From Ligilactobacillus agilis DSM 20509 (GTDB lineage: Bacteria > Bacillota > Bacilli > Lactobacillales > Lactobacillaceae): a DNA stretch of 45,232 nt. Positions 1,474 to 40,537 of the stretch are shown here, one piece after another; position 1 is the first letter of the stretch, and every line of letters begins with the position of its first letter. The notes beneath the pieces were generated by a model, which saw only the letters and a list, made by a program, of their open reading frames with translations, was not told the origin of the DNA and did no database searches. The stretch lies in contig NZ_AYYP01000044.1 in assembly GCF_001436215.1 (NCBI RefSeq), forward strand, positions 20,468 through 65,699. Reading direction: 5' to 3'. The position numbers were made by a program, and so were the translations under genes.

Positions 1474-2781
1474 TTAACCGCGACCAATCACCCAGAAGAA
1501 CCCAATAAAGACGAAGAATAAAACGTACATCAAAGCAGGTACTTCCTTGCCACGCTTAGCAGCTAACATTGTAATTGGGTAAAGGATTACCCCTAAAGCC
1601 AAACCATCAGCAATACTGTATGTTAATGGCATTGCGGCGATAATGATGAAAGATGGAATTGCGATTTCTAATTTAGACCAATCAACCCGCGCCATATTTT
1701 GGGCCATAAGCACCCCAACGATAATCAAAGCGGGAGCTGTAACTTGCGTAGTAACAATCGCAAGTAATGGCGAAAAGAATAAACCGAAGATGAATAAGAT
1801 CCCAGTTGTAACGGCTGTTAACCCTGAACGACCACCAACAGCAATCCCAGCGGATGATTCAACGTAGGCACCGACTGGTGAAGTCCCTAGTAAAGTCCCA
1901 ACGAGCATTGCACTTGAATCAGACATCAAAGCTTGGCCAATACGGGGAATCTTGTTGTCCTTAACAAAGCCTGCTTGGGTACATAAACCAACTAAAGTTC
2001 CGGCTGTATCAAAGAAAGCAACTAATAAGAAGGTCAAGACCACTACGACCAATTGGAAGCTGTTAATATCCGTAATGTGCTTAGCAGCCACCAAGAAGGT
2101 TGGCTTTAAGCTAGGCGCTGCAGAAACGAATGCAGTTGGCATCTTGATTAAATCAGTTGCAATCCCAAAGATAGTTGATAGGACCATCCCGATAAAGATA
2201 GCTCCCGGCACCTTAAGTACCATTAAGATTGCAATCGCGATTAACCCAAAGACAGTTACCCAAACTTGACCATGAAAACTACCCAGGCTTACTAATGTAG
2301 ATTCGTTCTTAACGATGATGCCCCCACCTTGAAGACCGATAAAGGCGATAAACATCCCAATCCCAGCAGAGATAGCATACTTTAAGTCTTGTGGGATTGA
2401 ATCGATAATCAATTCACGTAATTTAAAGACGGTGATTAAGATGAAAATTAAAGCAGCCGCAAATGCCCCAGCTAAAGCAGTTTGCCATGGAATTTTCATC
2501 CCGATACATACAGAGTAAGCAAAGAAAGCGTTAATCCCTAAACTAGGCGCAGTTGCGATTGGATACTTCGCAATTACCCCCATTAACACACAGCCGATGG
2601 CACTAGAAAGTGCTGTCGCCGTGAAGACTGCGCCCTTGTCCATCCCGGCTGCGCTTAAAACAGTAGGGTTTACGAACAAAATATAGCACATAGAAATAAA
2701 TGTTGTGAAACCAGCTAAGATTTCACGCTTAGGATTAGTTCCTAATTTATCTAACTTAAAAAATGAATTGAGTGCATTCAT
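1474..2781 (-). CDS. pbuG: NCS2-family purine (guanine/hypoxanthine) permease, AzgA/PbuG type
   Basis: A 435-residue polytopic membrane protein of the NCS2 family, AzgA/PbuG branch, which imports guanine or hypoxanthine by proton symport. Seen: about 12 hydrophobic segments, the N-terminal signature EILAGFTTFISMCYILFVNP, the substrate-site segment TAPSLGINAFFAY, a central FFDTAGTLVG motif, and SSAGIAVGGRSGLTAV near the C-terminal half. The start is the ATG preceded by AAAGGAG; an upstream ATG at 2808 lacks a ribosome site. A promoter with an extended -10 (TGCTATTAT) lies about 45 nt upstream, and PurR-box-like sites sit about 70-105 nt upstream of the start of transcription, which supports a purine substrate. 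Guanine versus hypoxanthine preference cannot be read from the sequence. Confidence 0.9.
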   Translation of the reverse strand: MNALNSFFKLDKLGTNPKREILAGFTTFISMCYILFVNPTVLSAAGMDKGAVFTATALSSAIGCVLMGVIAKYPIATAPSLGINAFFAYSVCIGMKIPWQTALAGAFAAALIFILITVFKLRELIIDSIPQDLKYAISAGIGMFIAFIGLQGGGIIVKNESTLVSLGSFHGQVWVTVFGLIAIAILMVLKVPGAIFIGMVLSTIFGIATDLIKMPTAFVSAAPSLKPTFLVAAKHITDINSFQLVVVVLTFLLVAFFDTAGTLVGLCTQAGFVKDNKIPRIGQALMSDSSAMLVGTLLGTSPVGAYVESSAGIAVGGRSGLTAVTTGILFIFGLFFSPLLAIVTTQVTAPALIIVGVLMAQNMARVDWSKLEIAIPSFIIIAAMPLTYSIADGLALGVILYPITMLAAKRGKEVPALMYVLFFVFIGFFWVIGRG

Positions 2782-2828
2782 TAATTTTTTCTCCTTTTTC
2801 ACGAACATTAATCGTGTTTTTTAGTTTA

Positions 2829-7345: not shown

Positions 7346-8614
7346 TCAGACAGTTTCAGTTACTACTTCTAAATTAACAGATAGATTTCTAAATTTTTCT
7401 ACGATGCGATCATAACCACGCAAGATATGGTCTGCATGTTCAATTACCGTCGTTCCCTCAGCCATCAACGCTAACCCTAAAAGCGAAACCCCGGCTCTGA
7501 TTTCACTAGCATTGACCACCGCCCCAGTTAATTTAGGCGAGTTACCTACCGTAATCACTCCATCTTTACTCTCAATCTTGCCTCCCATCCGCTTCATTTC
7601 AGGGATATGCTTGATGCGTTCCGGATAAAGTGTATCTATAATGGTTGACTTTCCGTGGGCTCTCATCAACAAAGGGGTAATTGGCTGTTGTAAGTCAGTT
7701 GCAAAGCCTGGAAACGGCGAAGTCTTCACTGTAATCGGAGCCAAAAAGTCACCGCCTGGAACATAAATTTGATCCTCATCGATTTCCAAGTTAACCCCCA
7801 TTTCTACCAGCTTAGCAATAAATGGATCCAAGTGTTCAGGGATTACGTTCTTTACTAAAACCCCCTTGCCATTAGCAGCCGCAAAGGAAAGGTAGGTGCC
7901 CGCTTCGATCCGATCTGGAATAATAGTATGGGTATTCCGTGCTTCTAAGCGGTCAACCCCTTGAATTCTAATGACGTCTGTTCCTGCGCCCCGAATATGC
8001 GCACCCATATTATTTAAAAAGGTAGCCAAATCGATAATTTCCGGTTCGCGGGCTACGTTTTCCATAATGGTTGTTCCCTTGGCTCTTACCGCAGCTAATA
8101 GTACATTGATGGTTGCTCCCACTGAAACTAAGTCAAAGAAAATCCGGGCCCCTTTTAAGCCTTCTGGCCCCGTGGTAATATGAACTTCATTTTCTCCTTC
8201 TTCGACCCGAGCACCTAGAGCTTTAAATCCCTTGATGTGTTGATCAATAGGACGTGGCCCAATATTATCTCCTCCTGGGAAACCAACCGTCGCTTGACCA
8301 AATCGCCCTAATAATGCCCCCATAAAATAGTAGGATGCCCGTAAACTCCGAATGGCATTTCCTGGTAAGGCCGCTTCCTTAATCTTAGTTGGATCAATTT
8401 CCAACTCACCATGACCAAATTTGGAAGTAACATTTAGCGATTTTAAAATCAGCATCAAGTTGTGCACATCTAAAATATCAGGGACGCTATCAAACTTGAC
8501 TGGTGTATCAGCTAAAATTGCCGCTGGAATCAAAGCCACCGTACTATTCTTAGCACCGCCAATCGTAACTTCCCCCGCCAAAGTTTGACCGCCCTTAACA
8601 ATCATTTTTTTCAT
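7346..8614 (-). CDS. murA2: UDP-N-acetylglucosamine 1-carboxyvinyltransferase with Asp at the catalytic Cys position
   Basis: A 422-residue MurA, which adds enolpyruvate from PEP to UDP-GlcNAc in the first committed step of peptidoglycan synthesis. Seen: the UDP-GlcNAc/PEP lysine in GGAKNST (Lys22), the arginine region SLRASYYFMG, and the active-site loop PGGDNIGPRPIDQH with Asp116 where E. coli has Cys115. Asp at this site is known in Mycobacterium and Chlamydia and makes MurA active but insensitive to fosfomycin, which needs the Cys thiol. The gene starts a murA2-rho transcript with a consensus promoter and a roughly 110-nt leader. A second MurA paralogue is usual in Firmicutes but is not in this window; the paralogue label MurA2/MurZ is by resemblance. 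Confidence 0.93.
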   Translation of the reverse strand: MKKMIVKGGQTLAGEVTIGGAKNSTVALIPAAILADTPVKFDSVPDILDVHNLMLILKSLNVTSKFGHGELEIDPTKIKEAALPGNAIRSLRASYYFMGALLGRFGQATVGFPGGDNIGPRPIDQHIKGFKALGARVEEGENEVHITTGPEGLKGARIFFDLVSVGATINVLLAAVRAKGTTIMENVAREPEIIDLATFLNNMGAHIRGAGTDVIRIQGVDRLEARNTHTIIPDRIEAGTYLSFAAANGKGVLVKNVIPEHLDPFIAKLVEMGVNLEIDEDQIYVPGGDFLAPITVKTSPFPGFATDLQQPITPLLMRAHGKSTIIDTLYPERIKHIPEMKRMGGKIESKDGVITVGNSPKLTGAVVNASEIRAGVSLLGLALMAEGTTVIEHADHILRGYDRIVEKFRNLSVNLEVVTETV

Positions 8615-26167: not shown

Positions 26168-26210
26168 ACAAAAAGCTGAACTAAAAGGATAAGCTCCTTT
26201 AGTTCAGCTT
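26168..26210 (-). terminator. Terminator of the PTS_EIIC_2-type gene
   Basis: Minus strand AAGCTGAACTAAAGGA pairs with TCCTTTTAGTTCAGCTT, followed by TTTGTTTT. Confidence 0.9.
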
Positions 26211-26229
26211 CTCTCGTCCTAACCCTAAC

Positions 26230-27267
26230 TTAAACCTGAATTAGGAGGTCTTTGGGAACAATACGCTTAGTCTTTTTAACAAAAACATACTTGGCAAGAA
26301 ACCCTAATAAAATTGGTAAAATCAAGAAAAGGATTGTTACTAAGACTAAGGCGGCCCCATCCACCTTCATTGCCCCTAGGGCAGCCATCGGCCCAATCAA
26401 ACCACTAAAGCCAAAGCCGGCGCTCATTGCCGTTCCTTGAATATTGAAAATTGCGCCAATCGCTCCCAAAACGGCTGCATTAATCATAACCGGGATAAAC
26501 AAGAAGGGTTTTTCTAACATATTAGCCATTTGAATCTTAGGCGTCCCCACAAAGTGAGCTAAGGTCGTCCCTAAGGAGTTAACCGAACTTCCCATAATTG
26601 CTAGCGTAAAACTTCCGGCTACAATCCCTAAGTTAGCACTTCCGGCTGCAATTCCACTCAAACCAACGGCAGTTGCAATCCCCACTGATGAAATAGGCGA
26701 AACAATTAAAACAGCAAAGACCATTCCCATCAAAGCTCCCATCAAAATTGGTTGTAAAGTAACTAGGTTTTTAATCGCCATTCCGATGAAAGTTGTTACC
26801 ATCTTAATGAAAGGTAAAGTCGTCAACCCAATTCCACCTGCAATCACAATTACTAACAAGGGCAATAGCAACACCGTGTAATTCTTAAATTTATTGCCGA
26901 TAAACTGAGCAACCAATACGGCCACCGTAATCGTCAAAGCCGTGTTAATTACGTCACCTGTCCCACTTAAAATAAAGCCCTGGGTCGTTTGTTTAATAAC
27001 CCCCCCTCCAATCATTGCTGCGGCAGCCACGGCACTGGTTTGAATCATATTAAACTTAAATAAATGCCCGACACAAAAACCTGACACAGCGGCTAATAAG
27101 GACATCGTAAAGTTAGTCATCGAAATAACTGCCGCTCCCAGTGGAAACACGCCTAATAAAGCCTTCATCAGCTGCCCGGTTAGTGCAGCGGGTACTAAGG
27201 TCACCACCACCCCCAGACTAATTCCATTCAAAATATTTAAGGTGAAATCTTTCTTGCTAATTGTCAT
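26230..27267 (-). CDS. PTS_EIIC_2-type membrane transporter (PF13303-like), possibly for aromatic compounds
   Basis: A 345-residue integral membrane protein, rich in Gly/Ala/Ile, with about nine to ten hydrophobic segments. It resembles the stand-alone PTS EIIC-like family (PF13303); no EIIA or EIIB domain or phosphorylatable His/Cys signature is seen, so PTS coupling is doubtful. Features include GISLGVVVTLVPAALTG at the N-terminus, an internal Gly-rich repeat pattern (GIAAGSANLGIVAGSFTLA) and FGFSGLIGPMAALGAMKVDG. The start is the ATG after GGAGG; the in-frame ATG at 27282 overlaps that ribosome site. It is the sole gene behind a 286-nt leader with a Tyr/Phe-rich leader peptide and attenuator, which suggests an aromatic amino acid or derivative as the cargo. 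That is inference; family substrates are not known to me. Confidence 0.82.
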   Translation of the reverse strand: MTISKKDFTLNILNGISLGVVVTLVPAALTGQLMKALLGVFPLGAAVISMTNFTMSLLAAVSGFCVGHLFKFNMIQTSAVAAAAMIGGGVIKQTTQGFILSGTGDVINTALTITVAVLVAQFIGNKFKNYTVLLLPLLVIVIAGGIGLTTLPFIKMVTTFIGMAIKNLVTLQPILMGALMGMVFAVLIVSPISSVGIATAVGLSGIAAGSANLGIVAGSFTLAIMGSSVNSLGTTLAHFVGTPKIQMANMLEKPFLFIPVMINAAVLGAIGAIFNIQGTAMSAGFGFSGLIGPMAALGAMKVDGAALVLVTILFLILPILLGFLAKYVFVKKTKRIVPKDLLIQV

Positions 27268-27285
27268 CTCTACATCCTCCATTTA

Positions 27286-27329
27286 AATTAAAAACCTGAG
27301 TACTATCAGTGATGATAATCCTCAGGTTT
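27286..27329 (-). terminator. Attenuator terminator before the PTS_EIIC_2-type gene
   Basis: Minus strand AAACCTGAG (27329-27321) pairs with CTCAGGTTT (27300-27292), with an inner TATCA/TGATA stem, followed by TTAATTT. It ends about 20 nt before the start codon. The antiterminator partner GATTATCAT lies within it. Confidence 0.85.
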
Positions 27330-27461
27330 AGTTACTAGTATTAATGGTTTGGACTAGACCCACAGATTATCATTTCTCCTGTGAGTCGAACATATCAAAA
27401 GTGCTTCTATTTCTCACAGGTGCAAACTTAGCTAATCTGGTTTGCACCCGTGCATAGTCGG

Positions 27462-27530
27462 CTACAAACCCTTCCTAAAGAAATAGAAGTAGTAATAATT
27501 ATTCAATTGTAAAGTCGTTTTCTTTAACAT
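27462..27530 (-). CDS. 22-residue leader peptide with seven consecutive Tyr/Phe codons
   Basis: ATG at 27530 preceded by GAGGAG at 8-nt spacing, 22 codons, TAG stop. The peptide begins MLKKTTLQLNN, then YYYFYFF (codons TAT TAC TAC TTC TAT TTC TTT), then RKGL. Seven aromatic codons in a row in a 22-codon frame, in the leader of a membrane transporter gene, is the hallmark of an attenuation leader peptide. The codons coincide with the 5' strand of the first leader helix, so a ribosome stalled there would change RNA folding. Confidence 0.8.
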   Translation of the reverse strand: MLKKTTLQLNNYYYFYFFRKGL

Positions 27531-27559
27531 TTAAACCACTCCTCTACTTGAATGATTAT

Positions 27560-27588
27560 AATATAAGCTATCTTTTTTAATTAGTCAA
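27560..27588 (-). promoter_or_regulatory. Promoter of the leader and PTS_EIIC_2-type gene
   Basis: TTGACT, 17 nt, TATATT on the minus strand; predicted transcript start near 27553, 23 nt before the leader peptide start codon. Confidence 0.75.

Positions 27589-39311: not shown

Positions 39312-40537
<1,226 letters not shown>

Follow-up and report, generated by a model that had tools for sequence, protein, structure and literature searches.

A predicted aromatic leader-peptide attenuator before a PTS_EIIC_2-type transporter gene of Ligilactobacillus agilis and related aminotransferase operons of Lactobacillaceae

In Ligilactobacillus agilis DSM 20509, the gene for a PTS_EIIC_2-type transporter is very probably controlled by a ribosome-mediated transcription attenuator of the trp/his/phe kind; the gene would be switched on by a shortage of charged tRNA-Tyr or tRNA-Phe and likely serves aromatic uptake or salvage. 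The gene lies in the window, the whole 45,232-nucleotide stretch of DNA analysed here, and is preceded on the minus strand, in this order, by a promoter, a Shine-Dalgarno sequence, a 22-codon open reading frame (ORF), inverted repeats and an intrinsic terminator that ends before the transporter ATG (Table 1). The promoter, Shine-Dalgarno sequence, ORF, helices and terminator put forward in an initial annotation of this DNA were all located at their proposed positions, and a competitor helix across the leader stop codon (H0), overlooked there, is added. Segments are named A to E in transcript order: strand A is strand 1 of the initial annotation, segment B contains its strand 2, and E is the 5' arm of the terminator. 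The leader, its apparent translation, the predicted A:B helix, the terminator and the association with a particular operon are each borne out by comparison between loci, as detailed below.

Table 1. Features of the transporter locus (window coordinates)
Feature	Position	Strand	Details
PF13303 (PTS_EIIC_2) EIIC-fold transporter gene	26230..27267	-	345 aa; Pfam E 2.4e-94
Terminator-like site 3' of transporter gene	26170..26213	-	18-pair stem + T-run
Sigma-70-type promoter TTGACT-17-TATATT	27560..27588	-	TTGACT 27588-27583, TATATT 27565-27560; 10/12 consensus matches
Shine-Dalgarno GAGGAG of leader ORF	27539..27544	-	sequence; 8 nt from ATG 27530
Leader peptide ORF MLKKTTLQLNNYYYFYFFRKGL, 22 codons	27462..27530	-	putative control codons Y12-F18; kept at 83 loci
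Strand A within aromatic codons	27479..27489	-	11 bp with 27414-27404; covariation in 14 leaders
H0 5' strand (segment 1) across leader stop codon	27459..27470	-	pairs 27450-27439; RNAalifold consensus and folding by ribosome position
13-bp hairpin H1	27415..27452	-	27452-27440 x 27427-27415; sequesters CCTGTG
Segment B	27404..27420	-	CCTGTGAG (27420-27413) pairs C; AGAAATAGAAG (27414-27404) pairs strand A
Segment C: CTCACAGG / GACTCACAG	27378..27387	-	CTCACAGG 27385-27378, GACTCACAG 27387-27379
Segment D	27357..27373	-	putative antiterminator strand ATGATAATC (27373-27365) and CTGTGGGTC (27365-27357)
Intrinsic terminator	27290..27329	-	hairpin 27329-27292, U-tract 27294-27290; -17.9 kcal/mol; 5' arm holds GATTATCAT (27320-27312)

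PF13303 is the sole Pfam match of the transporter, covering residues 11-341 of 345 at 316.5 bits against a cut-off of 28.9. Its gene is probably transcribed alone, as it is followed by a terminator-like site; the next gene on the same strand encodes a PurR-type regulator, and the other flank is a divergent polysaccharide deacetylase gene. The leader ORF carries seven consecutive aromatic codons (YYYFYFF) and, at 7 in 8 residues, is the most densely aromatic among the 40 small ORFs of 10-45 aa in the window that start with ATG and follow a Shine-Dalgarno sequence, the runners-up having 5, then 4 and 4. A promoter scan of the region is weak by itself, returning 7 promoter-like sites against 5.4 expected, and a simple terminator scan did not include the leader terminator among its sites. 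The spacing of 23 nt first given between promoter and ORF does not hold from the -10 element, past which the ATG lies 29 nt, and fits if the transcription start site is about 7 nt after it. Elsewhere in the window, an EPSP_synthase-family (PF00275) gene is found at 7394-8599 (minus strand); the genome has two such genes, both of which we take to be probably MurA copies rather than AroA.

Transporter homologues occur in 14 of the 26 genomes from the genus and, counting remote ones at E<=0.001, in 222 of the 350 genomes sampled from the family, as well as at 49 named loci, some of which duplicate DNA of other loci in the set. A leader was defined as an ATG-initiated frame of 10-45 aa with at least five F/Y/W in eight residues and a Shine-Dalgarno match of at least 4, the last of these being thus built into the search. 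Of 150 distinct loci, 24 carry such a frame within 400 nt upstream; 20 rounds of dinucleotide shuffling each gave 0 or 1 per 150. Further upstream it was found at 32 of the other 126 loci (from less than 1 kb to 3 kb of sequence, depending on the locus) and in 27 of 60 loci with about 3 kb of upstream sequence; the shuffle control covers the 400-nt scan only, and the long-distance scans are supported by the same gene following every leader and by a terminator after it. On the question, raised in the initial annotation, whether homologous leaders lack an aromatic frame, one was found in total at 83 homologous loci (35 of them named loci) with 82 distinct leaders. The record titles of these loci name Ligilactobacillus, Lactobacillus, Pediococcus, Secundilactobacillus, Leuconostoc, Furfurilactobacillus, Weissella, Limosilactobacillus and Lacticaseibacillus, and one names Faecalicatena. 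This last record (L054), titled Faecalicatena absiana (Lachnospiraceae), holds a Lactobacillus-like aminotransferase-PF13303 pair with its leader, which may be due to transfer or contamination.

The leaders vary from 17 to 33 aa, and their N-terminal parts and the order of F/Y/W differ by group, the C-terminal aromatic core being common. All 82 contain Phe, 80 contain Tyr and 62 contain Trp, so that the original proposal of Tyr and Phe as the sensed residues keeps its aromatic control codons and is widened; the best reading is that the leaders sense the charging of Phe and Tyr tRNAs and, in most relatives, also that of Trp. Promoters with at least 9 of 12 consensus matches precede 64 of the 78 leaders with enough sequence, against a mean of 15.5 and a maximum of 20 in 20 rounds of shuffling. 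The strict rule found nothing in 33 of the 60 extended upstream regions, including those of three loci from the same genus (L004, L005 and L007; 59-63% identity), which were also negative in a relaxed leader search, and no strict leader was found at the remote-subgroup loci checked with extended upstream sequence. The relaxed search gave some match in 13 of 25 loci lacking a strict leader and is therefore unspecific; five candidates were picked from it by eye, on position and resemblance, namely three of Oenococcus type (MADQMSQMHSYYYWFTR twice and MTEKQSQMHSYYYWFTR), which have no Shine-Dalgarno sequence, and two from Lacticaseibacillus. Beyond the family, a frame of the strict kind was present in 3 of the 20 upstream regions scanned, in one of them weakly. 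On a tree of 139 of the 150 distinct loci (11 with proteins shorter than 200 aa were left out), the aromatic-leader label from the 400-nt scan needs two changes, most unlabelled rows having been searched too short a distance upstream at that stage. The protein alignment comprised 42 of 44 chosen sequences, L013 (short) and L175 (no start) being left out.

The leader stands directly before PF13303 at 24 of the 83 loci and heads an aminotransferase operon at the other 59. Its presence upstream of the PTS_EIIC_2 transporter, as proposed for the window, is thus upheld there, but the transporter is not its exclusive partner. The idea that loci without a direct leader lack one was rejected, since the leader lies one or two genes upstream at these 59 loci. 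In tblastn searches with the genes of locus L060, an aminotransferase was found between leader and PF13303 at all 59, and a D-2-hydroxyacid dehydrogenase as well at 45, behind the aminotransferase in each of these 45. The aminotransferase matches the class I/II family (PF00155) at the two loci tested (L060 and L050), and the best PDB relatives of the L060 protein are 4my5, described as a putative amino acid aminotransferase, and 1dju, an aromatic aminotransferase; the L060 dehydrogenase is a D-2-hydroxyacid dehydrogenase (PF02826/PF00389) resembling D-lactate dehydrogenase. When the aminotransferase was used as query in 121 genomes, 30 loci were returned, 18 of them with a leader within 600 nt upstream, and 6 of these 18 have the dehydrogenase and no PF13303 within the approximately 1.5 kb fetched behind the aminotransferase. 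That aminotransferase operons occur under the leader, some of them without PF13303 in the fetched stretch, suggests that the leader is part of an aromatic regulon, and the idea that it is confined to the window or to this transporter was rejected. The window appears to hold the one-gene form of a Lactobacillaceae regulon that elsewhere comprises aminotransferase, in many cases D-2-hydroxyacid dehydrogenase, and PF13303. The L. agilis genome has homologues of the aminotransferase and the dehydrogenase elsewhere (47% and 48% identity); an aromatic leader is absent from the roughly 1.5 kb upstream of them. Outside Lactobacillaceae (L278, L280, L281, L283, L286), PF13303 follows, by eye, the end of a dihydrolipoamide dehydrogenase-like gene, a neighbour that possibly links PF13303 to 2-oxo acid metabolism.

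For the RNA itself, 80 of the 82 leaders have a terminator of -12 kcal/mol or better in the next 330 nt, against 6 of 82 shuffled sequences. The 273-nt leader of the window folds with z = -5.5 (0 of 200 shuffles equally good), and the complementarity of its strand A to the leader-terminator region and of its terminator 5' arm to the spacer was matched in 3 of 300 and 2 of 300 shuffles, respectively. Of the 82 leaders, 51 have a partner for the terminator 5' arm between leader and terminator that reaches the top 5% of shuffles and 31 do not, and for the aromatic codons (strand A) against the spacer only 23 reach it. Fourteen leaders (those of the window, of L. ubinensis (L002) and of L003, and a further 11 from a neighbouring genus) were aligned. 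In the A:B helix, 95.2% of cells are paired, two-sided changes occur in four of nine pairs, and pairing falls to 35-67% when the partner strand is slid, so that strands 1 and 2 of the initial annotation do covary. The exchanges track the codons (Tyr TAT with ATA, Trp TGG with CA, and Arg CGC with GCG, Arg CGC being that of L003), one pair being broken in the six Trp leaders. For the whole structure including H1, there are 5 two-sided pairs and 11 cells against 1.1 and 2.8 in shuffles that leave sequence relatedness in place, with none of 500 as high; the covariation score and the number of paired cells also exceed all 500 shuffles, and one of the five measures, further pair types, shows no excess (357 of 500 as high). 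The H0 core pairs (columns 71-77 x 101-107) are present in 13-14 of the 14 sequences in the RNAalifold consensus and are nearly invariant, and the B:C core pairs are likewise nearly invariant and therefore uninformative about pairing. In the leader part of the alignment all gaps are of 3 nt, and beyond it they are of many lengths; by this comparison, the leader ORF appears to be translated, with gaps as expected of a translated ORF.

These observations bear on the possibility of plain intrinsic termination beside a fortuitous small ORF, or of control by a trans-acting factor (an RNA-binding protein or tRNA binding). This explanation would suit the finding, presented below, that the conformer with the terminator is the most stable one in each of the three modelled ribosome states, but it is highly improbable given the conserved ORF with its 3-nt gaps and the covarying A:B helix inside the codons. 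Moreover, the leader region (27268-27588) matches no Rfam family at gathering level, and a T-box at this position was rejected, as none of the 22 T-box (RF00230) matches at E<=0.001 in the genome falls at the corresponding C8:47735-48055.

The attenuator would work as a relay. Under a shortage of charged tRNA-Tyr or tRNA-Phe, the ribosome would stall in YYYFYFF and cover strand A, leaving the stop-codon segment free to pair with the 5' arm of H1; CCTGTGAG could then pair with CTCACAGG, and this would free strand D, in which CTGTGGGTC otherwise competes for GACTCACAG of segment C, so that the candidate antiterminator pairing of ATGATAATC with GATTATCAT in the terminator 5' arm may form and RNA polymerase would continue into the transporter gene. 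With aromatic tRNAs charged, or with the leader untranslated, strand A and/or H1 would hold segment B, and the C:D hairpin and the terminator would stand.

The first step of this relay is supported by folding predictions. In transcripts ending just after segment C, the probability of B:C with strand A free is 0.00 in 13 of the 14 leaders (0.86 in L003), and when the sequence is hidden up to the end of the aromatic codons it is 0.82-0.99 in 13 (0.43 in L002); both states are as expected in 12 leaders, L002 and L003 being the exceptions. For the window, the values are 0.00 free and 0.99 masked, in agreement with the earlier claim that masking of strand 1 permits the B:C pairing. A ribosome at the stop codon gives 0.18-0.83 on the short transcript (0.79 in the window), with no clean 'off' state, and 0.05 on a longer window transcript with the ribosome 5' boundary set at 27466, so that what folding predicts for the stop-codon segment varies with the boundary assumed. 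Of the further relay to the antiterminator as initially proposed, the B:C step is thus backed by folding, but equilibrium favours the terminator in all three ribosome states, by 8.3 (free), 9.4 (stalled) and 6.1 (at stop) kcal/mol in the window. Before the 3' arm of the terminator is made, D:E is favoured over C:D at equilibrium, again in all three states. Since equilibrium folding of the full window leader separates no ribosome states, the decision between D:E and the terminator must be kinetic, or the picture is incomplete; we infer this decision and the direction of the response from the arrangement of the segments. In several leaders of the neighbouring genus (L025-L034), the C:D hairpin has its own T-run and is followed by a second terminator, possibly forming tandem terminators. 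Where the C:D hairpin carries a T-run, as in L025, the layout would be a plain trp-like arrangement, and the later terminator of the window leader may have been added in evolution.

Stalling on a short ORF with a common C-terminal aromatic core would equally fit an arrest peptide, the nascent chain of which stalls the ribosome on a small molecule (a drug or an aromatic compound) in the manner of erm and cat leaders rather than sensing tRNA charging. Such a peptide is quite improbable here: it is mainly the aromatic run that the leaders share, their N-termini, length and F/Y/W order varying as expected of control codons, and the controlled genes match amino-acid enzymes and not resistance genes.

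Amino-acid leader-peptide attenuators are a classic kind of regulatory element, and in E. coli the trp, his, pheA and pheST leaders have an ORF with regulatory codons, mutually exclusive helices and a terminator before the first gene. The attenuator proposed here shares the short ORF with its codon run, the exclusive helices and the placement of the terminator, and the E. coli his leader is likewise a relay of more than four segments. It differs in belonging to a Firmicute, in its mixed Phe/Tyr/Trp run, in its operon of aminotransferase, dehydrogenase and EIIC-like genes and, for the window, in controlling a single gene and in having a separate second-stage terminator. T-boxes are the textbook device for amino-acid genes in this bacterial group. 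Tyr T-box leaders (RF00230) are similar in standing before aromatic-related genes in the same genome and before a PF13303 subgroup of the same genus, but they are tRNA-binding RNAs without a leader peptide. According to the accessible parts of the respective papers, leader-peptide attenuators occur in Actinobacteria (PMC1262725), and candidate histidine leader-peptide attenuators in some Firmicutes, namely the Bacillus cereus group, Eubacteriales and Erysipelotrichales, T-boxes being reported for Lactobacillales (PMC9413887). As far as that part of PMC9413887 goes, the Firmicute histidine attenuators are alike in having a tandem-codon leader peptide, a terminator and an antiterminator, all predicted, and differ in serving histidine biosynthesis in other Firmicute groups. 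The arrangement is unmentioned in the accessible part of a T-box survey (PMC2494555), and the main text of a paper on regulons of lactic acid bacteria (PMC3616900) contains no attenuation, leader peptide, aromatic, tyrosine or T-box. A literature search, with most subscription journals outside its coverage, found no description of the arrangement and a passing mention of PF13303.

The substrate of the transporter is left unspecified by its predicted fold. The protein has no match in NCBIfam at E<=0.001 and no relative among PDB sequences at E<=10, and its AlphaFold model (pLDDT 91.5) has an EIIC fold, similar to a model of PtsG (Z 19.5, rmsd 3.8 over 321 residues), to MalT (Z 16.4, 4.3 over 316) and to ChbC (Z 10.5, 6.0 over 288). 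These glucose, maltose and chitobiose PTS EIIC proteins share the fold over 288-321 residues but only 12-17% identity, and PF13303 in relatives sits in an amino-acid operon. The L. agilis genome (99.99% complete) has no match at E<=0.001 to prephenate dehydrogenase (PF02153) or prephenate dehydratase (PF00800), whereas all 14 control genomes were positive. Four PF13303 relatives from the same genus (L008, L009, L011, L012) are preceded by Tyr T-boxes with E-values from 4e-10 to 3e-9, which score below the Rfam gathering threshold and are therefore absent from a gathering-level scan; their UAC (Tyr) specifier is a reading from their sequences and from the tyrS T-box of the L. agilis genome (GAA-U-UAC). 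Taken together, the leader, the operon partners, the missing PF02153 and PF00800 matches and these T-boxes suggest as substrates aromatic amino acids or the corresponding 2-oxo/2-hydroxy analogues, which we infer the transporter most likely imports; the initial description as an importer of Tyr, Phe or related compounds is in this respect a reasonable one. The remote PF13303 relatives L018 and L019 have T-boxes read as Leu, so that the wider family may serve several amino acids.

Several further T-boxes were observed. At L018 and L019, PF13303 lies beside two T-boxes on opposite strands, read as Leu on the PF13303 side and as Ile on the other. A compact T-box in the L. agilis genome (L196, G000:C51:43128-43306; GAAAUAC, read as Tyr) precedes, by eye, an NhaC-like transporter gene and resembles in layout the T-boxes before PF13303 in L008-L012. 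At L010, a group II intron match (2751-2820, minus strand) lies upstream of the PF13303 gene; L011, the closest relative of this locus, has a Tyr T-box upstream of that gene. In the window, a T-box at 40370-40536 (minus strand) lies upstream of what is, by eye, a trpS-like gene; its 74.9 bits are under the Rfam gathering score, and it was therefore missed by the gathering-level scan of the window.

The same attenuator could instead control an exporter of aromatic 2-hydroxy acids (phenyllactate and the like) produced by the aminotransferase and dehydrogenase, both of which are frequent in the operon (59/59 and 45/59). This is unlikely, as attenuation would activate export just when aromatic compounds are scarce, hardly a sensible response, and as the L. 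agilis genome, lacking matches to the last enzymes of Phe and Tyr biosynthesis, yet keeps the transporter alone under the leader. A more specific and tentative proposal, possible though not the likelier outcome, is that this PF13303 group comprises EIIC-fold importers not of sugars but of aromatic 2-hydroxy or 2-oxo acids (phenyl-, hydroxyphenyl- or indole-lactate or -pyruvate), which with the dehydrogenase and the aminotransferase would form a salvage route to Phe, Tyr and Trp in hosts without their biosynthesis, switched by the mixed Phe/Tyr/Trp leader as the first leader-peptide regulon across Lactobacillaceae.

Through the attenuator, a function open to testing can be proposed for a large transporter family that is named after the sugar PTS but probably set in an aromatic amino-acid regulon. 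It also suggests that ribosome-mediated attenuation is widespread where T-boxes would be expected, with the two devices serving different members of the same transporter family. Phenyllactate and similar products of lactic acid bacteria are of interest for food preservation and in the gut, and the leader would be a switch for the enzymes involved in compounds of this type.
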